From: Chloroflexota bacterium
GTDB lineage: Bacteria; Chloroflexota; Limnocylindria; Limnocylindrales; CSP1-4
Direction of reading: 5' to 3'
DNA length: 33,307 nucleotides
Assembly: GCA_015478725.1 (NCBI GenBank)
Contig: JADMIG010000026.1
Coordinates: forward strand, 1-33,307
Made by a program: the position numbers and the translations under genes. The notes beneath the pieces are model-generated. The model worked only from the letters and a program-made list of their open reading frames with translations, ran no database searches and was not told where the DNA came from. Positions 7,569-18,274 of the stretch are shown piece by piece. Every line of letters begins with the position of its first letter. The stretch's first letter is position 1.

Positions 7569-9254
7569 GTGGCGGACGTGATGGCGACCGAACGGCCCCT
7601 CGTGCCGATGGCGCTCGCGCGCGGTCGGACCGCTGCGGTCGTTGCGCCGCACCATCTGGCGACCGCCGCCGGCCTGTCGATCCTCCGTGCCGGTGGAACC
7701 GCTGTCGACGCGGCGATCGCGACGAATGCCGTCCTCGCGGTGGTCATGCCCAACGGCTGTGGGATCGGCGGTGATGCGTTCTGGCTCATCTGGGAGGAGG
7801 CGTCCGCGACGATGTCGGCGCTCAACGGATCCGGCCGGGCGCCGGCCGCCGCCGATGCGGCAGCGTGGCGACGGGCCGGGGCGACGGCGCTCCCGATGCG
7901 CGGTCCACTCACGATCACGACGCCGGGAGCCGTCCGCTCCTGGGCCCGGGCCCAGGCGCGCCACGGCCGCCTCTCGCGGGCCACGATCCTCTCCCCCGCG
8001 ATCGACCTTGCGGCGCGTGGATTTCCCGCCTGGGATGGCTACATCGCGGCCGTCGAGCGGAGCGCCGAGATCTTCCGCACGTCCCCGGCCTTGCCTGATC
8101 ACGGTTCCGCATGGGCGTCCGTGCACCGACCGGCTGGTCGCCCGTGGCGGCCCGGCGAGCTCGTCCGCCAGCCCGCACTCGCTCGGACGCTCGAACGACT
8201 CGCCCTGGCGGGCTTCGACGACCTGTACGACGGCGATCTCGCCGGCCGGCAGGCGTCCGGTCTCGCGGCCGCCGGATCGCCGATCACGGCTGCCGACCTC
8301 GCTGCGCAGGACGCGACCTGGGAGGCGCCGATCTCGACGTCGTATCGCGGCGGGACGGTGACCACCCATCCCCCGAACTCGTCCGGCCTGGTCGCGCTCG
8401 AGATCCTCGCCATCCTCGACCGGTTCGACCCGCCGACCCGGTCCGCGTTCGGGCCCGCGGGTGTCACGGATGCGGCGTGGCTCCACACGGGCATCGAGGC
8501 GGCGAAGCTCGCGATGGCGGATCGCGACGCGTTCCTCGCCGACCCCGCGGTCGTCGACATTCCGGTCGAGCACCTCCTCGACCCTGGTCGGATCGCCGAG
8601 CTTGCCGGACGGATCGATCCGGGACACGCCGCCGCTCCGCGGCCATCTGTCCATCCCCGCGGCGGCGGGACCGTCTACCTCGCGACGGTGGACGCCGACG
8701 GAAGCGCGGTGAGCCTCATCGAATCGAACTATCGCGGCTTCGGCTCCGGCGTCCTCGACCCCGCGACCGGGATCCATTACCACGACCGCGGGTCGTACTT
8801 CACGCTCGCCGAGGGACACCCGAACGAGCTCGCTCCGGGCAAGCGACCCCTCCATACCCTCCTGCCGGCGATGCTCGTTCGCGCGGGACGGCCGTGGGTG
8901 GTCCTGGGCTCGATGGGCGGCGACACCCAGCCGCAGATCCTCGCCCAGGTGGTCTCCGCCCTCGTCGACGGCGGGGTCGACGTCGCCACCGCGATCGCCG
9001 CGCCGCGGGCGTTCGTGGAGGCGGCGGAGCACTTCGCCCCACCGATCGCCGTGCGGCTCGAGTCGCGCTTCGCGCCATCGATCGCCGCCGCGCTCACCGC
9101 CCGCGGCCACCCGGTGACGGAGGTCGCCGCCTTCGATGACCAGCTCGGCCATTGTCACGCCATCGAGCTCGTCGACGGCGGTCCGGCGACGGCCGATGGC
9201 TCCGTCGCCGCCGCGACCGACCCGCGGAGCGCCGGCGCACCTGCCGTCTGCTGA
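7569..9254 (+). CDS. Gamma-glutamyltransferase family protein (Ntn hydrolase)
   Basis: The protein has 561 residues, the usual length for the GGT proenzyme. The N-terminal part has the family pattern GGTAVDAAIATNAVLAVVMP and GCGIGGDAFW. The large/small subunit boundary is at GGGTVYLATVDADGSAVSLI, where Thr368 aligns with the autocatalytic N-terminal nucleophile (TTHxSVVD in classical GGT). The neighbouring Thr and His of the classical motif are replaced, so acceptor or substrate specificity may differ. The small-subunit motif GSMGGDTQPQ is present. No signal peptide is seen, unlike periplasmic GGTs, so a cytoplasmic role on gamma-glutamyl or similar amide substrates is likely. A link to cyanophycin dipeptide breakdown is only a contextual guess. 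The GTG start is fixed by TAGACT 6 nt upstream. Confidence 0.9.
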   Translation: MADVMATERPLVPMALARGRTAAVVAPHHLATAAGLSILRAGGTAVDAAIATNAVLAVVMPNGCGIGGDAFWLIWEEASATMSALNGSGRAPAAADAAAWRRAGATALPMRGPLTITTPGAVRSWARAQARHGRLSRATILSPAIDLAARGFPAWDGYIAAVERSAEIFRTSPALPDHGSAWASVHRPAGRPWRPGELVRQPALARTLERLALAGFDDLYDGDLAGRQASGLAAAGSPITAADLAAQDATWEAPISTSYRGGTVTTHPPNSSGLVALEILAILDRFDPPTRSAFGPAGVTDAAWLHTGIEAAKLAMADRDAFLADPAVVDIPVEHLLDPGRIAELAGRIDPGHAAAPRPSVHPRGGGTVYLATVDADGSAVSLIESNYRGFGSGVLDPATGIHYHDRGSYFTLAEGHPNELAPGKRPLHTLLPAMLVRAGRPWVVLGSMGGDTQPQILAQVVSALVDGGVDVATAIAAPRAFVEAAEHFAPPIAVRLESRFAPSIAAALTARGHPVTEVAAFDDQLGHCHAIELVDGGPATADGSVAAATDPRSAGAPAVC

Positions 9255-9345
9255 GACACCGAGGCTATACTCCCGCCTGCCGGTGGCGCGCTGCGCTCAC
9301 GACCACCGCCACCGGCGGACACCTCGCCGCCTCGCAGGAGGACGC
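9255..9345 (+). promoter_or_regulatory. Promoter and hairpin leader of small Cys-rich gene
   Basis: TATACT at 9266-9271 is a good -10. About where transcription would begin, a perfect 10-bp inverted repeat starts: GCCGGTGGCG at 9279-9288 pairs with CGCCACCGGC at 9307-9316, extendable by a wobble and one C-G pair. A strong AGGAGG at 9336-9341 precedes the GTG at 9346. Unlike most genes here, this one has a long structured leader and a full ribosome binding site. Confidence 0.5.
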
Positions 9346-9621
9346 GTGACCTCGAACGTGGGGCAGAACTACCCGTACACGAGCGAAACGGAAGCCGAGC
9401 GCGCGGCCGCGATCGCCCGCCTCGTCGCCGCCCGGGACGGCCTCGCCGCCACGCTCGCCGCGGAGACGTCGCCGCTCGACGACGACGACGACCAGCGCTG
9501 GGTCTGGAAGTGCCCGACGAAGGGCTGCCCCGGCCTCCTCCACACGGCCGGCTACGCGCTCGACCTGCATGCCGTGTACGTCGTGTGCGACGGGACCTGC
9601 GCCAAGACGTTCCTCCGCTGA
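9346..9621 (+). CDS. Small protein with possible zinc-ribbon-like C-terminus
   Basis: The protein has 91 residues and its family is not recognised. The N-terminal half is an Ala/Glu-rich helix (ETEAERAAAIARLVAARDGL), followed by an acidic run of five Asp. The C-terminal 40 residues contain four cysteines in two pairs, KCPTKGCPG and VCDGTCAK, an arrangement compatible with one tetrahedral zinc site. The GTG start is chosen because AGGAGG lies 4 nt upstream; the frame remains open upstream but without family-like sequence. Its stop overlaps the AzlC frame, so it is probably the first gene of a three-gene azl operon. A regulatory or metal-binding role is possible but not shown. Confidence 0.75.
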   Translation: MTSNVGQNYPYTSETEAERAAAIARLVAARDGLAATLAAETSPLDDDDDQRWVWKCPTKGCPGLLHTAGYALDLHAVYVVCDGTCAKTFLR

Positions 9622-10310
9622 CCGCCGTCGCCGCGATCGGGCTCGCGGAGGCTCGCCGCCGCCTCGTCCTCGACATGGCCGGCATCGTCGTGTCGTCCGC
9701 CGCCTTCGGGGTCGTGTTCGGGCTCGCCGCCGAGCGGGCCGGCTACTCGATCGCGGAGGCCGTCGCGATGAGCACGATCGTCTTCGCCGGCGCCTCGCAG
9801 TTCGCGGCGGTCGGGCTCGTCGCCGCGGCGACCCCGTGGCCGGCGATCGTCCTCCTGACGGCGTTCCTCAACGCTCGCCACCTGCTGTATTCGGCAGCCC
9901 TTGCACCGTGGCTCCGCGGCGTCTCGCGTCCGGAACGGGCCGCGATGGCCTACGTCCTCACCGATGAGGCGTTCGCGCTCTCGCTCGCCCATTTCAAACG
10001 GCTCGGCCGCCTCGACGTCGGCGGCTACTGGATCGCGGCGATCGGGTCCACGTTCATTCCGTGGAATGTCGCCACCGTCCTCGGATTCCTCGTCGGGGGC
10101 TCGGTCGCCGCGCCGGACCGATTCGGGCTCGACGTCGTCTTTCCGGCCGCGATGGCCGGCCTCGCCACGGGACTCGTCACCGGCCGGCGGGAGATCGTGG
10201 CGGTCGGGGCCGCGATCGTCGTGGCGGTGGTCGTCGCACTTGCCTGGGATCCCCACGTCGCGGTCGTCATCGGCGGCCTCGTCGGTCCCCTCATCGGACT
10301 CGCCCTGTGA
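9618..10310 (+). CDS. azlC: AzlC family branched-chain amino acid exporter, large subunit
   Basis: The protein has about 230 residues if started at the CTG at 9618, or 211 from the ATG at 9675. Family motifs are clear: FGVVFGLAAERAGYSIAEA, then STIVFAGASQFAAVGL, NARHLLYSAAL and DEAFAL. Hydrophobic segments give about six to seven membrane helices. AzlC with AzlD (YgaZH type) exports branched-chain amino acids. Residues upstream of the ATG (EARRRLVLD) align with the normal AzlC start, which favours an upstream start; CTG at 9618 overlaps the preceding TGA as CTGA and would be translationally coupled. The start is therefore uncertain, while the family call is firm. Confidence 0.88.
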   Translation: MTAVAAIGLAEARRRLVLDMAGIVVSSAAFGVVFGLAAERAGYSIAEAVAMSTIVFAGASQFAAVGLVAAATPWPAIVLLTAFLNARHLLYSAALAPWLRGVSRPERAAMAYVLTDEAFALSLAHFKRLGRLDVGGYWIAAIGSTFIPWNVATVLGFLVGGSVAAPDRFGLDVVFPAAMAGLATGLVTGRREIVAVGAAIVVAVVVALAWDPHVAVVIGGLVGPLIGLAL

Positions 10311-10639
10311 GCCTCGACCTCATCGGGCTCGCCCTCCTCATGGGCGCCGTGACCTATCCATCGCGGGCGCTGCCGATCCTCGCTCCCGGCATCGAGCGAT
10401 TGCCGCCGCCCGTGCTCGCCTACCTCCGGCTCGTCGGCCCGGCCGTCCTCGCCGCGCTCGCCGCGGTCAACACCGTGGTCGTGAACGACCCGAACGGCAG
10501 GGCGAGCTTCCACGTCGGGATCGAGCTGCCGGCCGTGGTCCTCTGCGTCGCCCTCGTCGCGTGGCGCCGGAACCTCTTCATCGGACTCCTCGCCGGGGTC
10601 GCGCTCGCCGCCGTCACCCGCGCGGCCGGCCTCGCCTGA
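10307..10639 (+). CDS. azlD: AzlD family branched-chain amino acid exporter, small subunit
   Basis: The protein has 110 residues with four hydrophobic segments. The motif ALLMGAVTYPSRALPIL is typical of the AzlD N-terminus, and LAYLRLVGPAVLAALAA follows. The GTG start at 10307 overlaps the AzlC stop as GTGA, indicating coupling and a stoichiometric complex with AzlC in the membrane. It ends 20 bp from the convergent M20 peptidase gene. That gap sits in a 20-bp near-perfect direct repeat (TGATCACG-CCGCCACGA at 10637 and 10657). Confidence 0.88.
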   Translation: MSLDLIGLALLMGAVTYPSRALPILAPGIERLPPPVLAYLRLVGPAVLAALAAVNTVVVNDPNGRASFHVGIELPAVVLCVALVAWRRNLFIGLLAGVALAAVTRAAGLA

Positions 10640-10659: not shown

Positions 10660-11862
10660 TCACGTCCGCCACGAGCGGACTATGGGGTCGCGGCTGGCGG
10701 CGACGATGAGCCCCGCGAGGAGGGCGGTGCGGGGAACGATCGAGTCCACCTCGAGATATTCGGCCGGCGAGTGGTCGTTGCCGCCGATCGGCCCGAGGCC
10801 GTCGAGACTCGGCACGCCCATGCCCGCGGTCGTGTTCGCGTCCGAGGCGCCGCCGGTCGCCGCATCGCGGAGCGGAAAGCCGAGCCGGGCGGCGGTATCC
10901 ACGGCGAGCTCGACGAGCCGGCCGGACCGCTCGAGCTTCTCCATCGGCCACCAGCGGGCCATCGGCTCGAGCTCGACGGTCACATCGGGGACAGCTGGGG
11001 TCGCGATGAGCTCGCGGACGGCCGCCTCGGCCGCCTCGAGGTCCGCCCGGACGATCGCCCGGAGATCCACCTCGAGCGTCGCCTGCTCGGCGACCACGTT
11101 CGGCCGTGTCCCGCCGTGGAGGACGCCGACGTTGCATGTCACGCCCGGCCAGCGCCCGCTCAGGGCATGGAGCGCCGGCACGAGGTGGGCGGCGGCGAGG
11201 ATCGCGCTGCGGCCCTTCTCGGGCTCCACCCCGGCGTGCGCGGCGCGGCCGTGGATCGTGAGGCGAGCGTCGAGGATCCCCTTGCGCGAGCTCACGATGT
11301 CGCCATTCGCGCGGGCGCATTCGAGGACAAGGCAGAGGTCCGCCTCGGCGGCGGCCAGCCGGATGATCGGCGTCGATGTCGGGGAGCCGATCTCCTCGTC
11401 GGGATTGGCGATGAACGTCATGCGTTCGAACGGCAGCGGATCGTGGGTCCGGCGCAGTGCGGCGAGCGCATGGAGACCGGTCAGGAGGCCGCCCTTCATG
11501 TCCGTCACGCCCGGCCCGTAGGCGCGGCCGGCTTCGATCCGGAACGGGCGGTCCGCCACGGTCCCCGGATCGAAGACGGTGTCCATGTGGCCGACGAGCA
11601 GGAGACGCGGCCCGCCCGGTGTCCCGTCCACGGTCCCGACGACGGTGTCGCCGAGCGTGTCGTGCCGATGGACGGTCACGGTCGCCCCGAGTTCGCGGAG
11701 ATAGCCGCCGACCCAGCGGCCGACTTCGTCGACGCCGGCCTTCGTGTAGCTCCCGCAGTCGATGCCGACGAGGGTCGCGAGGTCGGCGAGGAACGCCGGC
11801 TCGTCGTCGGCGACGAGATCGTGGAGCGTGGCGAGCCCGGGGTCGGCGATGGGGTGGTCCAT
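10660..11862 (-). CDS. M20 family metallopeptidase (glutamate carboxypeptidase/ArgE/DapE-like)
   Basis: The protein has 400 residues. Zinc-site residues of the M20 family are present in order: His92 and Asp94 (VGHMDTVFD), Asp121 (GPGVTDMKGG), the catalytic/ligand pair Glu156-Glu157 (NPDEEIG), and a late His in GGNDHSPAEY. The dimerisation lid lies between about residues 185 and 300. The overall pattern is nearest to the carboxypeptidase G2/ArgE-like branch, so removal of a C-terminal Glu or deacylation of an amino acid is the family chemistry. No signal peptide is visible. It is divergent from the CphA-like ligase with a 120-bp shared region, so a role in dipeptide breakdown from cyanophycin is a reasonable but untested idea. 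The ATG is 10 nt after a TATGCT box. Confidence 0.88.
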   Translation of the reverse strand: MDHPIADPGLATLHDLVADDEPAFLADLATLVGIDCGSYTKAGVDEVGRWVGGYLRELGATVTVHRHDTLGDTVVGTVDGTPGGPRLLLVGHMDTVFDPGTVADRPFRIEAGRAYGPGVTDMKGGLLTGLHALAALRRTHDPLPFERMTFIANPDEEIGSPTSTPIIRLAAAEADLCLVLECARANGDIVSSRKGILDARLTIHGRAAHAGVEPEKGRSAILAAAHLVPALHALSGRWPGVTCNVGVLHGGTRPNVVAEQATLEVDLRAIVRADLEAAEAAVRELIATPAVPDVTVELEPMARWWPMEKLERSGRLVELAVDTAARLGFPLRDAATGGASDANTTAGMGVPSLDGLGPIGGNDHSPAEYLEVDSIVPRTALLAGLIVAASRDPIVRSWRT

Positions 11863-11982
11863 GGCGCAGCGAAGCATATCGGGCGGGCGGGAGCCCGGAG
11901 CCGATCGCGCGCAGATGACCCGCTCCTGTCGTGCGCCAGGAGCCGCCGCTCGTCCGGACCGCCGCGCTATCCTGCGCGGATC
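11863..11982. promoter_or_regulatory. Bidirectional promoter region between M20 peptidase and CphA-like ligase
   Basis: TATGCT at 11878-11873 on the minus strand lies 10 nt before the peptidase ATG. TATCCT at 11968-11973 on the plus strand lies 9 nt before the ligase GTG. Both are close enough to predict leaderless mRNAs. No clear -35 elements or operator palindromes are seen. Confidence 0.4.
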
Positions 11983-13752
11983 GTGCGTCTCATCGAGGTT
12001 CGCCTGCTCGAGGGTCCGAACGTCTACCGGCTCGAGCCGGTGGTGAAGCTCGAGCTCGCGGTCGGCCGCCGCAGGACGTGGTACGGGCAGCGCGAACCGG
12101 CCCGTCACGCGCTGGTCCGTCTCGGCGCGAACGTCCCGCCACGCGACTGGCCGGACCCGATCGCCGCCGTCGCGGGCTGGGTCCGGCGCCTGCGCGCGGA
12201 TCATGGCGAGGGCACGGCCGCCGTCGCCGTCCACCGATCGTCCGATCCGGGTCACTGGATCGTGACGTGGCCGTGGCTCGGAGCGGAGCGGGCGGTGGCG
12301 ATCGCCGATGCCGCGGTCGCGCTCGGCGAGCGCGACGTGTCGGCCGAACGTCGCGCTCGGCTGACCGGAGCCCAGACGCGACTCCTGGCTCGCCACGAGG
12401 CGACGATCGCGGCCGCCGGCACGTCGCCGCCGGCGTGGATCCGGGATCCGCAGCGCCGGATGCCCATCGTCTCGATCTCCGGCACGAACGGCAAGAGCAC
12501 CGTGACGCGCCTCATCACGCACATCCTCCTCGAGGCGGGGCGGCGCGTCGGGACCACCACGTCGGACGGGGTGCTCGTGGACGGCCGCCTCATCGAGCCC
12601 GGCGACTGGACCGGTCCCGGCGGTGCGGCCCGGGTCCTCGGCCGCCACGACGTCGACGTCGCCGTCCTCGAGACCGCCCGTGGCGGGATCGTCCTCCGCG
12701 GGGTCGGCTACGAGTCGAACGAGGCGAGCGTCCTGACGAACGTCTCGTCCGATCACCTCGACCTGCAGGGCATCCACACCCTGCCCGAGCTTGCCGAGGT
12801 GAAGTCGACGATCTGCCGGATCACCCGCGCGGACGGCTGGACGATCCTCAACGGCGACGACCCACTCGTCGCGAGCGTCGCCCGTCGGGTCCGGTCGCGG
12901 GTGGCGTTCTTCTCGATCGCGCCGGACCCTCCGGCGGTCGTCCGTCGCCATCTCGCCGCCGGCGGTCGGGCGTACCTCCTGCGCGGCGCAACGCTCCTCG
13001 AGGTCGAGGGTGCCGCCGACGCCGGCCGATCGATCGGGACCGTTCGCGAGGTGCCGATCGCCGTCGGCGGACTCGCCCGCCACAACGTGGCCAACGCGCT
13101 CGCCGCTGCCGGCGGCGCCCGCGCCCTCGGGGTGACCGTCGATGACGTCGCCCACGGGCTGCGCGACTTCCGCCCGTCGGCGGACCGCTCGCCCGGCCGG
13201 CTCAACCTGTTCCGCCTCGGGGCGCGGATCATCATCGTCGACTTCGCCCACAACGAGGCCGGCATCGAGGCGATCCTCGACGTCGCGGAGGGGATCGCTG
13301 GCGGCGCGGCGGGCCGCGCGGCGCCGATCACGGCGATCATCGGGACGGCGGGCGATCGGCCAGACGACACACTCCGCGGCATCGGCCGGATCGCGGCCAG
13401 GCGAGCCCAGCGAGTCGCGATCAAGGAGACGCTGAGCTATCTCCGCGGCCGGACCCGCGAGTCGATCGTCGGTGAGCTCGTGGCCGGTGCGGTCTCCGGC
13501 GGCCTGAGCGCGGGATCGATCCCCGTCTATCCGTCGGAGACGGCGGCGCTCCGGGCGGAGCTCAACGGCGCGGCGGCGCAGGCGGGGGCGTCCGGCGCTC
13601 GACCCGACGCCCCGCGCGTCGTCGTCCTCCTGTGCCACGAGGAGCGCGACGAGGTCTTCAGCCTCCTCGCCGAGCTCGGTGCCCGTGCGGTCGACGTCGC
13701 GGCGGAGCTCACCGAGCTCGTCCCCCGCCTCCAGGATCGCCTGCAGGGCTGA
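11983..13752 (+). CDS. CphA-like Mur ligase lacking the ATP-grasp domain
   Basis: The protein has 589 residues. The N-terminus (RLIEVRLLEGPNVYRLEP) resembles the first strands of the CphA N-domain, and GHWIVTWPWLGAERAVAIAD matches the later part of that domain, but the HxxEH helix of true CphA is absent. There is no ATP-grasp module. From residue 167 the Mur-ligase half is complete: P-loop GTNGKST (167-173), then TTTSDGVLVDGRLIEPGD, ETARGGIVLRGVGYE, LTNVSSDHL and HNVANALAAA, closely paralleling CphA. In CphA1 this half adds arginine to the aspartate side chain. A related amide ligation in the same pathway is likely, but substrate and partner are unknown. The GTG start is supported by TATCCT 9 nt upstream; the long open frame further upstream is shadow. 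Confidence 0.85.
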   Translation: MRLIEVRLLEGPNVYRLEPVVKLELAVGRRRTWYGQREPARHALVRLGANVPPRDWPDPIAAVAGWVRRLRADHGEGTAAVAVHRSSDPGHWIVTWPWLGAERAVAIADAAVALGERDVSAERRARLTGAQTRLLARHEATIAAAGTSPPAWIRDPQRRMPIVSISGTNGKSTVTRLITHILLEAGRRVGTTTSDGVLVDGRLIEPGDWTGPGGAARVLGRHDVDVAVLETARGGIVLRGVGYESNEASVLTNVSSDHLDLQGIHTLPELAEVKSTICRITRADGWTILNGDDPLVASVARRVRSRVAFFSIAPDPPAVVRRHLAAGGRAYLLRGATLLEVEGAADAGRSIGTVREVPIAVGGLARHNVANALAAAGGARALGVTVDDVAHGLRDFRPSADRSPGRLNLFRLGARIIIVDFAHNEAGIEAILDVAEGIAGGAAGRAAPITAIIGTAGDRPDDTLRGIGRIAARRAQRVAIKETLSYLRGRTRESIVGELVAGAVSGGLSAGSIPVYPSETAALRAELNGAAAQAGASGARPDAPRVVVLLCHEERDEVFSLLAELGARAVDVAAELTELVPRLQDRLQG

Positions 13753-13809
13753 TCCGGCGCCGCGGCCAGCGCCGCGAGGTGTCATCCGGCGCCTCGATCA
13801 GCGCCGCGA
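13752..13809. repeat. 26-bp direct repeat in convergent intergenic gap
   Basis: Two copies (13752-13777 and 13784-13809) share ATCCGGCGCC at one end and AGCGCCGCGA at the other. Each can fold into a GGCGC/GCGCC hairpin. The gap separates the convergent ligase and cphA genes, so a bidirectional transcription stop is plausible. No T-tract is present. Confidence 0.5.
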
Positions 13810-13817
13810 CGAGCCCA

Positions 13818-16718
13818 TCAGCCCTCCGGCGCCTCGAGCTCGCCCGGATCAGCGATCGCGGTCCCGCCCCGGGCCATGCCGCTCGCCGCCGTCGTCTCGC
13901 GGTAGACGCTCACGGCATCGTCGACACACATGACGACGAGATCTCCCGGCCGAGCGCGGGCGAGGCCCTCGCGGACCGCCGTGAGCTCATCGAGGATCGC
14001 CTCGGCACGCCCCACCCGGACCGACCCGCCGGCGCGCGCCTCCTCGATGCCGGCCAGGACGTTCGCGGCACTCGCCCCGGGCTCCCGTCCGCGGCGGTTC
14101 CTGTCCTCGCGGACGAGGATCTCGTCGAACGACCCGGCGGCGAGCGCGCCATACATCCGCTGGTCCTCGTCGCGCCGGTCGCCGGGGATGCCGATCACGC
14201 CGATCGCCCGCCCGCTCCGCCCCGCGCGCTCAGGACCGCCGGTCCGCGCCACCCTTCGCCCGGCCTGCCGGCGTTCCCGGCCCATCTCGGCCACGGAGAG
14301 GGAGTCCGCCATCATCCGGTCGACGAAATCCGCGAGCTGTCGCATCCCGTCGACGTTGTGGCAGTAGTCGATGACCGCCCGCACGCCGCCGCCCACCTCG
14401 AGGAGGTTGAGCCGACCGGGCGCCTGGAAGAACGACGTCGAGAAGGTTCGGAGGCCCTGCCGGATGTCGTGGAGATGCGCCCCGGCGGCCCACGCCCCGG
14501 CCGCCGCTGCGAGGGCGTTCGCGACGTTCATCCGCGCCCGCCCGCCGAACGTGGCCGGGATGAGGTGGGTGAACAGTACCGGCATGGTCCGTGAGCCGAG
14601 CCGGAGGACGATGAGCTCGCCGTCCGGTGCCTCCTGGAGGGCGAACGCCGCGCCACCCCGCCCGGCGTGGCCGTCCACACGGTCGTACCCTTCCTCGCCC
14701 TTCGCCGTCGACATGCTGAAGTAGACGATCCGGCCGGCGCAATGGCGGCTCATCCGGGCGACGTGCGGATCGTCGGCGTTGAGGACGGCCGTCCCGGACC
14801 GCGGCACGGCCTCCACGACGACCGCCTTGACGTTGGCGAGCTGGCCGACCGTCGTGATCCCGCCGAGGCCGAGGTGATCGCCGCTGACATTGGTGACGAC
14901 GGCGACGTCGTTGCGGTCGTAGCCGAGGCCTTCGCGGAGGATGCCGCCCCGGGCGACCTCGAAGACAGCGGTGTCCACCGTCGGGTTCTGAAGGACCATC
15001 TGGGCCGACCGCGGCCCGCTCATGTCGCCCTTTTTGATGAGCCGGCCGTCCACGACGATGCCGTCCGTGGAGGTCATCCCGACCCGGCGGCCCATGAGCT
15101 TGAGGATGTGGGAGATCATCCGCACGGTCGTGGTCTTGCCGTTGGTCCCGGTGACGGCGACGATCGGGATCCGCGCCGCCGAGCCCGGCGGGAACAGCGA
15201 GTCGACGACCGGCCGGGCCACGTACTGCGGCTCGCCCTCCGTGGGATGGGTGTGCATCCGGAAGCCGGGAGCGGCGTTCACCTCGACGATCGCTCCACCG
15301 GTCTCCCGGACCGGCGTCGCGATGTCCGGGCAGATGAAGTCGATGCCGGCGACGTCGAGGCCGATGACCCGGGCCGCTGTCTCGGCGATCTCCACGTTGT
15401 CCGGGTGGGCCTCCATCGTGCGGTCGATGGAGGTCCCGCCGGTCGACATGTTGCCGGTGAGGGCGAGCTTGATCCACGCCCCGGCCGGCGCCACCGCGTC
15501 GAGGTCGTGGCCCTGCGCGCGGACCAGGGCCGCCGCCCCCTCGTCCACCCGGATCCGGGTGAGGACCTTCTCGTGGCCGATGCCGCGGCGGGGGTCCGCA
15601 TTGGCGAGCTCGACGAGCTCGCGGACGGTGTGCTCGCCGTCGCCCGTGACGCTCGCCGGTACCCGTTCGGCGACCGCCGCCAGCCGGCCTCCGATGACGA
15701 GGACGCGGTAGTCATTGCCGGCGACGTACGTCTCGACGACGACGTCCCCGGCCCGGCTCTCGCGAAGGGCGCCGTCGAACGCAGCCCGGACGTCCTCCTC
15801 CGAGCGGAGATCGAGGTGGACACCACGGCCGTGGTTGCCATCGAGCGGCTTCACGACGCAGGGGAACCCGAGCCGTCGCGCCGCCGCCGCGGCAGCGTCC
15901 GCGGAATCGACGACCTCGGACCGCGGGACGGGCAGGCCGGCGGAGTCGAGGAGCCGGTTCGTCAGGCTCTTGTCCGAGGCGACATCGACCCCGATCGCCG
16001 ATGTCCGGGAGGTCATCGTCGCCCGGATGCGCTGCTGGTGGACGCCCTGGCCGAGCTGGACGAGCGAGTGGCGGTCGAGCCGCATGTACGGGATGTCGCG
16101 GCTCACCGCCTCGTCGATGAGGGCCTGGGTGGACGGCCCGAAGGCGAGGCGCTCGGCGAGCCGGATGAGCCGTTCGAGCTCGACGAGGAGATCGAACGTC
16201 GGCGAAGCGGCCGGATCCACGAGGTGGTTGACGAGGTCGACGGCGATCCGACCCGCCTCGACGCCGACCTGCTCCTCGCGGTACTCGTAGATGACGTTGT
16301 ACTGGCCGAGCGGTCCGGCCCCCCGCGTCTTGCCGTGGCGGACGCCCGTCCCGGCCAGGTTCTGGAGCTCGAGCGCGATGTGCTCGGCGATGTGGCCGCT
16401 CCATGTGCCCTCCCGGAGGCGGCTGATGAACCCGCCGCGGCGACCGAGCGAACAGGCGTGATCCTCGAGCGACGGCAGCAGCCCGACGAGCGCGTCGGTG
16501 AAGCCCGGCAGCAGCGTGGACGGGTACTGCTCGAGCACGCCGAGGTCGACGAGCATCCGGATGACGGGCTCGCGCGCCCAGTAATTCGCGCCCCGGAGGA
16601 CGCGGGTCTCGAGGATGCGGAGCGTCGCTGCCAGCGGCTCGGTGGGAACGGGGACGGTCGTCGCGGCGGCGGCCCGCCGGCGCTGGCCCGGAGCGGGAGC
16701 GGGAGCGGTGGAGGCCAC
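13818..16718 (-). CDS. cphA: Cyanophycin synthetase
   Basis: The protein has 966 residues, somewhat longer than the usual 870-900 because of an Ala/Pro-rich N-terminal tail of about 30 residues. It polymerises aspartate and arginine into multi-L-arginyl-poly-L-aspartate in the cytoplasm, using ATP at two sites. Domains in order: N-domain (about 33-200) with GHIAEHIALE at 108-117, an HxxEH motif of the primer-forming hydrolytic site; ATP-grasp (about 230-500) with PCVVKPLDGNHGRGV and DFICPDIATP; Mur-ligase half from VTGTNGKTTT (about 521) through STDGIVVDGRLIKKGDMSGP to the C-terminal domain. The tail after about residue 775 carries an Arg/Gly-rich insert near 790-815. The GTG start has AGGAGG 9 nt upstream. 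The gene lies 69 bp after cphB, presumably one operon. Confidence 0.95.
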   Translation of the reverse strand: MASTAPAPAPGQRRRAAAATTVPVPTEPLAATLRILETRVLRGANYWAREPVIRMLVDLGVLEQYPSTLLPGFTDALVGLLPSLEDHACSLGRRGGFISRLREGTWSGHIAEHIALELQNLAGTGVRHGKTRGAGPLGQYNVIYEYREEQVGVEAGRIAVDLVNHLVDPAASPTFDLLVELERLIRLAERLAFGPSTQALIDEAVSRDIPYMRLDRHSLVQLGQGVHQQRIRATMTSRTSAIGVDVASDKSLTNRLLDSAGLPVPRSEVVDSADAAAAAARRLGFPCVVKPLDGNHGRGVHLDLRSEEDVRAAFDGALRESRAGDVVVETYVAGNDYRVLVIGGRLAAVAERVPASVTGDGEHTVRELVELANADPRRGIGHEKVLTRIRVDEGAAALVRAQGHDLDAVAPAGAWIKLALTGNMSTGGTSIDRTMEAHPDNVEIAETAARVIGLDVAGIDFICPDIATPVRETGGAIVEVNAAPGFRMHTHPTEGEPQYVARPVVDSLFPPGSAARIPIVAVTGTNGKTTTVRMISHILKLMGRRVGMTSTDGIVVDGRLIKKGDMSGPRSAQMVLQNPTVDTAVFEVARGGILREGLGYDRNDVAVVTNVSGDHLGLGGITTVGQLANVKAVVVEAVPRSGTAVLNADDPHVARMSRHCAGRIVYFSMSTAKGEEGYDRVDGHAGRGGAAFALQEAPDGELIVLRLGSRTMPVLFTHLIPATFGGRARMNVANALAAAAGAWAAGAHLHDIRQGLRTFSTSFFQAPGRLNLLEVGGGVRAVIDYCHNVDGMRQLADFVDRMMADSLSVAEMGRERRQAGRRVARTGGPERAGRSGRAIGVIGIPGDRRDEDQRMYGALAAGSFDEILVREDRNRRGREPGASAANVLAGIEEARAGGSVRVGRAEAILDELTAVREGLARARPGDLVVMCVDDAVSVYRETTAASGMARGGTAIADPGELEAPEG

Positions 16719-16787
16719 GGGTTCCGTCCTCCTGCGACTGCGGAGCTGGCTCGGTGGTGACGGGGCGGGTCGGCGCGGAGTCGGCGG

Positions 16788-17624
16788 CTAGCTCGACGCG
16801 GCCTCGCCGGCCGCGACGGTGCGGAGGACCGGCACGTCCACCCGTCGCCGCGTCCGGAGGTCGAATCGGTAGCCGGCCGGGAGCGAATGAAGGATGACGT
16901 TGCCGACCATGATCGGCCGGTGGCCGCCGACCTCCCAGGCGTCCGTCTCCGAGCTCGAGCCATCGACCACGGTGATGCTGCCGCGCCCGACGACCTCCAT
17001 GACGTGGTCCGGGCCGACGATCCCGGCCGTGTCCTCGTCCACGCCGAGCCCGAGGAGGCCCGGATTCTGGGCGATGAGGCTGAGGAGGCGACCGAGCCGG
17101 TTCCGCTGCTGGAAGTGCTGGTCGACGATGACGCCCGGGAGGACGCCGAGGCCGGCCGCGATCTGGGCCATCCGCTGCTTGGGCGTCGCGCCGGAGGCCC
17201 CGAACGCGATCATGTGGCTGCTCGTCGCCGAGGCGCCGGCCGACGTGCCGGCGATCACCGCGCCGTCGTGGAACCGATCGAGGATCGCCTCGGCGAGCCG
17301 GGTCCCACCGAGGGTCGAGCTGAGCCGGAGCTGGTTGCCGCCGGTGAGGAAGATCCCGGTCGCGTCGCGGACCGCAGCGACGACCACCTCCTCGTTCGCC
17401 CCCTCACGCGTGACGGCGTGGATGGGCCGGACCGTCCGAACGCCGAGGTCGCCGAAGACCTGCCGATAGCGCTCGCCGGCCTCCGCCCCGAGCGAGGACG
17501 CGGTGCTGACGACGGCGACCGTCGCCGCGCGACCGCCCGCGAGGGCGACGAATCGGCTGAGGATGACCCGATCCCGGACCTTGTCCTCAGCGCCGCCGAT
17601 GATGATCACGGTTCCTGCGGGCAT
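16788..17624 (-). CDS. cphB: Cyanophycinase (S51 family serine peptidase)
   Basis: The enzyme has 278 residues, the normal length. Cyanophycinase is an exo-acting serine hydrolase that releases beta-Asp-Arg dipeptides from cyanophycin. The nucleophile Ser128 lies in the elbow AGTSAGAS, preceded by FLTGGNQLR at 92-100 and followed by DQHFQQRNRLGRL, all family features. The N-terminus GTVIIIGGAEDK is typical, which fixes the ATG at 17624 and excludes the long low-complexity frame extending upstream. The TATACT box at 17640-17635 lies 10 nt before the ATG. Co-transcription with cphA couples degradation to synthesis. A minisatellite lies directly upstream. Confidence 0.95.
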   Translation of the reverse strand: MPAGTVIIIGGAEDKVRDRVILSRFVALAGGRAATVAVVSTASSLGAEAGERYRQVFGDLGVRTVRPIHAVTREGANEEVVVAAVRDATGIFLTGGNQLRLSSTLGGTRLAEAILDRFHDGAVIAGTSAGASATSSHMIAFGASGATPKQRMAQIAAGLGVLPGVIVDQHFQQRNRLGRLLSLIAQNPGLLGLGVDEDTAGIVGPDHVMEVVGRGSITVVDGSSSETDAWEVGGHRPIMVGNVILHSLPAGYRFDLRTRRRVDVPVLRTVAAGEAASS

Positions 17625-17640: not shown

Positions 17641-17705
17641 GACGGCAGGCTCACCGCGCCGGACGGGCGGACCGGGCCGGGCCGGCCGGGGCGGGACGGT
17701 ACGGC

Positions 17706-17846
17706 GGGACGGGACGGGACGGGGCGCGGCCCAGCGGGACGGGGCGCGGCACAGCGGGACGGGGCGCGGCCCAGCGGGACGGGCCGGGGCGCGGCCCAGC
17801 GGGACGGGGCGCGGCACGGCGGGACGGGCCGGGGCGCGGCACAGCG
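17706..17846. repeat. GC-rich minisatellite, 20/25-bp units
   Basis: Six consecutive units end in GCGGCCCAGC, GCGGCACAGC or GCGGCACGGC. Basic units are 20 bp (GGGACGGGGCGCGGCCCAGC). Variant units of 25 bp contain an extra GGCCG-type insertion, and the first unit is lengthened by repeated GGGAC. The array lies 80-220 bp upstream of cphB. Both strands are open in several frames, giving only low-complexity Arg/Pro shadows. Confidence 0.85.
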
Positions 17847-18274
17847 GCTCCCGATCGGCGAGCATCCCTCCCCGACCGTTCGAGCGCCGAGCACGGTCGG
17901 TCCGTCAGAAGGTGCCAGATGGTCGCCAGGCGGGCGTTGGACGACCGTTGCATCGTCCGAGGGAGTCCACGCTTGTCGCGTCGTGCTTGATCCAGCTGAT
18001 CTTCGAGAGCGGCAAACCGGCACCTGCCACGTGGATGGGCAGATGGCAGGAACAGACGGACGAACGACCGCCTGGGGAGCAGATGGCGGAAACGAGCCGC
18101 ACTGTCGCGCCGCCGCACTGTCGAGCCGCCGGGCCGCCGCACCGCCGCCGCACCGCCGCACCGCCCCGCCGCCGAGCGGCCGGGCCGCCGGGCCGCCGCA
18201 CCGCCGAGCCGCCGAGCCGCCGCACCGCACCGCCGAGATGACACCGACCGGGGCGGTGCGAGAATGACCGAGCG
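17847..18274. other. Long intergenic region between cphB and glycosyltransferase
   Basis: No gene is supported here. From 17847 to about 18108 the sequence has ordinary complexity, with a 15-bp match (17926-17940) inverted relative to 163-177 and several CAGATGG words. From about 18109 to 18238 it is a degenerate GCCGCC-rich repeat with 9-bp variants GCCGCCGAG and GCCGCCGCA. GAGAAT at 18260-18265 is a possible -10 box 9 nt before the ATG at 18275. Confidence 0.6.
18109..18238. repeat. Degenerate GCC-rich microsatellite
   Basis: The stretch is composed almost entirely of GCCGCCGAG, GCCGCCGCA and GCCGGGCCGCC blocks in irregular order. It is non-coding and forms stop-free frames on both strands as an artefact. 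Confidence 0.75.

Follow-up and report, generated by a model that had tools for sequence, protein, structure and literature searches.

Gene content of the locus

The window, meaning the whole stretch of DNA that was analysed, was a 33-kb contig (33,307 nucleotides) from a Chloroflexota genome assembly of 3.45 Mb (151 contigs, 96% complete). It carries the genes for synthesis and breakdown of cyanophycin (multi-Arg-poly-Asp), a nitrogen-storage polymer, together with a gene for a stand-alone ligase which was given the working label CphM. The features are as follows, with the basis of each assignment in brackets.

10660..11862, minus strand: M20 metallopeptidase gene, divergent from CphM; candidate beta-aspartyl dipeptidase (profile matches, neighbourhood)
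11863..11982, no strand: divergent intergenic region of 120 bp between the M20 gene and CphM; putative shared regulatory region (sequence)
11983..13752, plus strand: CphM, stand-alone CphA-type Mur ligase of 589 aa with a GTG start (ORF, profile and structure searches)
11983..12342, plus strand: degenerate CphA-type N domain of CphM, aa 1-120, without the Cx19HxxEH primer-hydrolase motif (hhalign, model, sequence)
12451..13575, plus strand: M domain of CphM, aa 157-531, Mur ligase central and C-terminal (lid) domains (profile, PDB, Pfam, Foldseek)
12481..12501, plus strand: P-loop GTNGKST, in which K171 corresponds to K499 of SuCphA1 (GTNGK invariant in a 38-member alignment; alignment to SuCphA1)
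13423..13452, plus strand: amino-acid recognition loop KETLSYLRGR, aa 481-490, with the CphA Asp replaced, a one-residue Tyr insertion and RGR kept (alignments to CphA and MurE)
13818..16718, minus strand: cphA1, complete N-G-M cyanophycin synthetase including Cx19HxxEH (TIGR02068, 1103 bits; sequence)
16788..17624, minus strand: cphB, cyanophycinase, peptidase S51 (TIGR02069, 256 bits against a cut-off of 126.6)

Read from right to left, cphB (minus) is followed after 69 bp by cphA (minus), a 65-bp convergent gap, CphM (plus), the 120-bp divergent gap and the M20 gene (minus). CphM thus lies tail-to-tail with the cphA1-cphB pair and head-to-head with the peptidase gene. Beyond the M20 gene lie genes for an AzlC-type exporter and a gamma-glutamyltranspeptidase (7569-10639, plus strand), and most members of the window's family have such genes beside M20-CphM-cphA-cphB as well. 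G+C-rich short tandem repeats, with units of 45 and 65 bp and others, were located immediately upstream of cphB (17661-17847 and 18106-18228).

The scores of the two neighbours agree with the complete cphB-cphA pair described in the original prediction. The window CphA is a full CphA1, in which the Cx19HxxEH primer motif, the ATP-grasp domain and the M domain are all present. Because it is complete, CphM does not replace a broken part, and the idea that CphM compensates for a defective CphA was rejected on the full set of N, G and M motifs.

Domain composition and fold of CphM

The original prediction had read the 589-residue product as a CphA-like ligase that lacks ATP-grasp and parallels the Mur-ligase half of CphA, and this reading was borne out. 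Pfam assigned only Mur_ligase_M and Mur_ligase_C to the protein, and the ATP-grasp domain looked for with Pfam was not found. The best curated family was the cyanophycin synthetase family TIGR02068 (356 bits), with the match confined to the M half of the 862-position profile (476-839); the best MurE model gave 107 bits. At 356 bits the protein falls below the TIGR02068 cut-off of 850, and it does not score as a CphA1. The motifs GRLI-GD, ETARGGI and LTNVS-DHL, named earlier as shared with CphA, are all present. The best PDB matches were CphA1 structures (aa 157-528, E 7.6e-71). With the AlphaFold2 model (pTM 0.86, mean pLDDT 84), all Foldseek ranks from 1 to 9 were CphA1 structures (7lgj, E 6.6e-37), and the first MurE appeared at E 2.3e-20.

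The "degenerate N-domain" proposed earlier was also recovered. In a profile-profile comparison (hhalign), the first 120 residues of CphM matched the CphA N domain with a probability of 95% (E 6e-8), against 0.4% for the G (ATP-grasp) domain, and the N-terminal region of the predicted model is arranged as beta-beta-alpha-beta-beta-alpha. The Cx19HxxEH motif, which is present in the N domain of 83% of CphA1s (PMC9262961), is absent from the CphM sequence. It has been reported that a loop of the CphA N domain packs on the M domain (PMC9262961); the part of the N domain with this loop corresponds to the region retained in CphM, and the primer-hydrolase helix motif has been lost. In actinobacteria the CphMs are longer by about 170 residues at the C terminus, a TPR extension recognised by Pfam in L118:2447-4630 (TPR_5, E 4e-23) and, in L115, by its length and sequence likeness.

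Conservation of the active site

The ATP- and Mg-binding and catalytic residues of CphA1 are K499, T500, T522, E558, D585/H586, R731 and H748 (PMC9427784, PMC9262961), and their counterparts in CphM are K171, S172, S194, E230, D257/H258, R406 and H423. The P-loop, the Mg site, the catalytic DH and the lid Arg and His of the CphA1 M domain are therefore all present. Conservation was followed in an alignment of 38 CphMs with 31-76% identity to the window protein. These counterparts were invariant, with Ser or Thr at the two positions of the Thr Mg ligands, and invariance was seen at G167-K171, T173, E230, D257-H258, N371, R406, H423, GDR457-459 and LRGR487-490. With its ATP, Mg and catalytic residues conserved, CphM is, judged by its sequence, very likely an active ATP-dependent ligase that activates a carboxylate.

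Phylogeny and comparison with known ligases

All 27 CphM rows of the tree formed a single clade (bootstrap 91, SH-aLRT 98) within a CphA+CphM group, which was split from MurE with 100% support. The test against MurC, MurE or FPGS homology attached to the original prediction thus came out in favour of CphA, and membership of CphM in MurE, MurC, MurD, MurF or FolC (FPGS) was rejected by the scores, the fold search and the tree. MurE has the same fold and chemistry, and its DNPR loop is equivalent to the altered loop of CphM; however, CphM belongs to another sequence family and is without the UDP-MurNAc-binding N domain. The AU test (p 0.24) did not separate a CphM nested in CphA from a CphM sister to CphA, nor, by the same value, an origin by loss of the G domain from CphA from a pre-fusion N-M ancestor. 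In this analysis the CphM clade was defined by N-M architecture, no ATP-grasp, no loop Asp, a Y/F insertion before LRGR and placement in the single clade, and the window protein has all of these characters.

CphM resembles CphA1 (SuCphA1, 7LG5/7LGJ; TeCphA1, 7WAE) in its Mur-type M domain with equal P-loop, Mg, catalytic and lid residues, in the remnant of a CphA1-type N domain and in belonging to the same gene cluster. It differs in having neither the ATP-grasp (Asp-adding) domain nor the HxxEH primer hydrolase, in its altered amino-acid loop, and in being a separate gene beside an intact CphA1. Like CphM, CphA2 is a CphA relative cut down to one biosynthetic site. However, CphA2 has lost the P-loop and lid of the M domain and kept the ATP-grasp site (PMC9427784), whereas in CphM the ATP-grasp is absent and the P-loop and lid are present, the opposite loss that had been noted originally. 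The beta-proteobacterial cphA' (e.g. L128, about 750 aa) is also a second CphA-like gene adjoining cphA, but in it the N and ATP-grasp domains have been kept, and it is the M domain that is weak and partial. Identity of CphM with CphA2 or cphA' was ruled out by these architectures.

CphA relatives with N and M domains and a missing or degenerate ATP-grasp also occur on plasmids of Deinococcus and Legionella adelaidensis (L193, L194, L195). In contrast to CphM, they branch inside CphA, apart from the CphM clade, and keep the CphA-type loop. Their identity with CphM was excluded by tree and loop, and they are events separate from CphM. The Deinococcus proteins (L193:7026-9200, 724 aa; L195:6702-9218, 838 aa) have a missing or degenerate ATP-grasp part and fall inside CphA in the tree. 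On the Legionella adelaidensis plasmid (L194:7326-10970), a 622-aa "Mur ligase family protein" of N-M architecture with a CphA-type loop is followed by a cyanophycinase and an isoaspartyl peptidase, and there is no other CphA-type match on this plasmid. Duganella (L164:5143-7245) encodes, convergent with its cphA, a CphA-like protein of 701 aa whose middle part is degenerate and whose loop is altered to SRDRK; this protein lies outside the CphM clade.

Distribution of CphM and its link to cphA

The neighbourhood link to cphA, on which the original prediction depended, holds in several phyla. CphM was found beside cphA in Chloroflexota, Actinomycetota, Myxococcota, Acidobacteriota and Lysobacteraceae (at least five phyla). 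In a wide scan of 85,000 genomes for CphM/cphA neighbourhoods, the two genes lay side by side in Actinomycetota, where they are convergent, in Myxococcota and Acidobacteriota, and in Lysobacteraceae, where CphM follows cphA on the same strand. Full-length orthologues with 54-76% identity were present in about 50 genomes of the window's family, which rules out a pseudogene or an oddity of one genome.

Co-occurrence was counted in four surveys. According to counts read by eye from tables of genomes that are not independent, cphA was also present in 152 of the 156 CphM genomes, and the four exceptions were short contigs or contig-edge matches.

Window's GTDB family (107 genomes): both genes 50, CphM only 1, cphA only 2, neither 54
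Lysobacteraceae: both genes 52, CphM only 3, cphA only 4, neither 188
Myxococcota: both genes 31, CphM only 0, cphA only 17, neither 141 (distant cphA types may fall below the threshold)
One actinobacterial order: both genes 19, CphM only 0, cphA only 0, neither 278 (distant cphA types may fall below the threshold)

In the window's family, the single CphM-only case was a contig-end fragment, and the two cphA-only genomes were 60% and 64% complete.

CphM was present in seven sampled Chloroflexota families. The convergent cphB-cphA/CphM arrangement was seen in four of them, and in another (f46) CphM-cphB-cphA lie all on one strand. In the remaining two (f25, f47) CphM is located away from cphA, which counts against the explanation preferred below. 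The start region of CphM in f25 (L067:6831-9694, minus strand) abuts a gene with a weak match to archaemetzincin metalloproteases. In Lysobacter the cluster is iadA-cphB-cphA-cphM; in Lysobacter sp. Root916, with IadA first, the CphM start comes directly after the cphA stop codon. One such Lysobacter cluster (L142:1010-9923) is placed between genes read as trpD and trpC, and in 14 of the 20 Lysobacteraceae loci CphM is followed closely by a trpC match. Since it repeatedly lies next to cphA/cphB and occurs together with them in different lineages, CphM is a member of the cyanophycin cluster. A search of plasmids for CphM found none.

Distances among CphMs followed those among the N+G parts of their partner CphAs (r 0.92 for 46 loci, 0.79 within the window's family and 0.73 for 12 lineages; permutation p 2e-4). 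On this sequence comparison CphM is co-inherited with CphA, and it diverges faster than CphA.

The amino-acid recognition loop

The lid loop follows the pattern E-D-x-x-(x)-RGR in CphA and E-x-x-x-Y-L-RGR in the CphMs of the window's family. In the alignment, 31 of 34 CphAs had the loop Asp, whereas all 27 CphMs lacked it, and the CphM loop is longer by one residue, which is Tyr or Phe in 25 of 27 members (usually Tyr). A second fixed change is found in GDxTGPxSA, where the Ser of 32 of 34 CphAs is Gly in 27 of 27 CphMs; this position is near the P-loop and may contact the acceptor. CphM and the CphA M site would accordingly be expected to use different substrates, as regards both the acceptor and the amino acid.

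In MurE the counterpart of the lid loop, by alignment, is the DNPR motif, and the CphA loop Asp corresponds to the MurE Asp that binds Lys; in Staphylococcus aureus MurE, Asp-406 binds the epsilon-amino group of Lys (PMC3829189). By analogy, the loop Asp of CphA would take part in Arg binding. Since no member has the Asp expected to recognise a basic side chain, the amino acid added by CphM is probably not basic and not Arg. The proposal that CphM retains the Arg-adding half of CphA is therefore supported for the CphA-type M half, but not for Arg. However, S. aureus MurE takes Lys mainly through pool size and not through active-site selectivity (PMC3829189). The loop change therefore need not alter the substrate, which counts against the preferred explanation.

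Proposed function and alternative explanations

On the features of its sequence, CphM is best explained as an accessory ligase whose acceptor is cyanophycin or a piece of it and which attaches an amino acid that is probably other than Arg, a reading to which we give an even chance. CphM would work in trans beside CphA1, as an ATP-dependent amide ligase dedicated to cyanophycin metabolism. Its acceptor, cyanophycin or a peptide derived from it, would be bound by the M domain together with the N-domain strands that have been retained, and a carboxylate of this acceptor would be phosphorylated. An amino acid, bound at its alpha-carboxylate by the conserved RGR, would then be joined through its amino group to the activated carboxylate, and the polymer would be decorated or capped with a second amino acid.

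The fold and catalytic residues shared with the CphA M domain, the RGR kept in the loop and the strict co-inheritance with cphA would also suit a helper or repair ligase which adds Arg as the CphA M site does, filling bare Asp residues in the polymer. However, the loop Asp that nearly all CphAs possess is missing from every CphM, and the one-residue insertion is fixed, which makes this rather unlikely. CphM might instead act on small molecules; with free Asp or recycled beta-Asp-Arg as substrate, it could, for instance, make or extend beta-Asp dipeptides for primer supply or salvage. A stand-alone ligase adjoining cphB and a dipeptidase-type gene would fit this role, and short primers matter for CphA (PMC9262961); but the window CphA carries the primer-making Cx19HxxEH and should need no primers, and CphM has kept the N domain, which in CphA has a loop packed against the M domain. 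This alternative is considered less probable still.

A role without catalysis, as a regulator or scaffold of CphA, could account for the divergence faster than CphA and for the TPR extension of actinobacterial copies. However, a pseudoenzyme is expected to lose some of its ATP, Mg and catalytic residues, and these are invariant over five phyla, so that we see little chance for such a role. Least of all can CphM be regarded as an ordinary cell-wall or folate Mur-type ligase that lies beside cphA by chance. It shares the Mur ligase fold, but it scores far better against CphA than against MurE, MurC and FolC, it stands in the fully supported CphA+CphM group, and it is found only in cphA genomes, contig-edge cases apart.

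Neither NCBIfam nor Pfam was found to have a model of its own for CphM, and a search of the open-access literature on cyanophycin gave no description of a CphM-like protein. CphM therefore appears to be new as a Mur ligase paralogue dedicated to cyanophycin, and a second-amino-acid ligase is its most likely nature. Because CphM relatives adjoin the synthetase in at least five phyla and almost never occur without it, many bacteria may contain a modified cyanophycin that has not been sought. It is conceivable, at somewhat less than even chance, that natural cyanophycin in several phyla is a two-amino-acid or capped polymer, made by CphM acting on some side chains or on the chain end, with a genetically set composition. 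A second ligase co-inherited with CphA in at least five phyla would make the known CphA/CphB pathway incomplete in these bacteria. Cyanophycin is of interest as a nitrogen store and bioplastic, and CphM would be a defined enzyme for cyanophycins with new side chains. Cultured hosts of CphM include Lysobacter, Terrabacter and Plesiocystis, which makes the proposal directly testable.

Peptidases and polymer breakdown

The product of CphM would be broken down by CphB together with the M20 peptidase in the window, or together with IadA elsewhere. IadA and IaaA were sought in the window's genome and neither was found, and the M20 protein is therefore a candidate for the missing activity; it may be the beta-aspartyl dipeptidase of cyanophycin breakdown here. 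An M14 search of the same genome gave one AstE/AspA-type protein, which scored best as a DoeB-like deacetylase, below the cut-off. The original prediction had included the divergent M20 peptidase in a variant cyanophycin-like system. The peptidase is real, with metal-site residues conserved in 36 copies (one copy without the last column), and in two Chloroflexota families (f1 and f3) its gene adjoins CphM in those sampled loci that extend over this flank. Since it is linked only in these two families, it is not a core part of the system. IadA takes its place in the Lysobacter cluster and in one acidobacterial cluster, and another M20 gene lies beside cphB in Actinomadura (L166).
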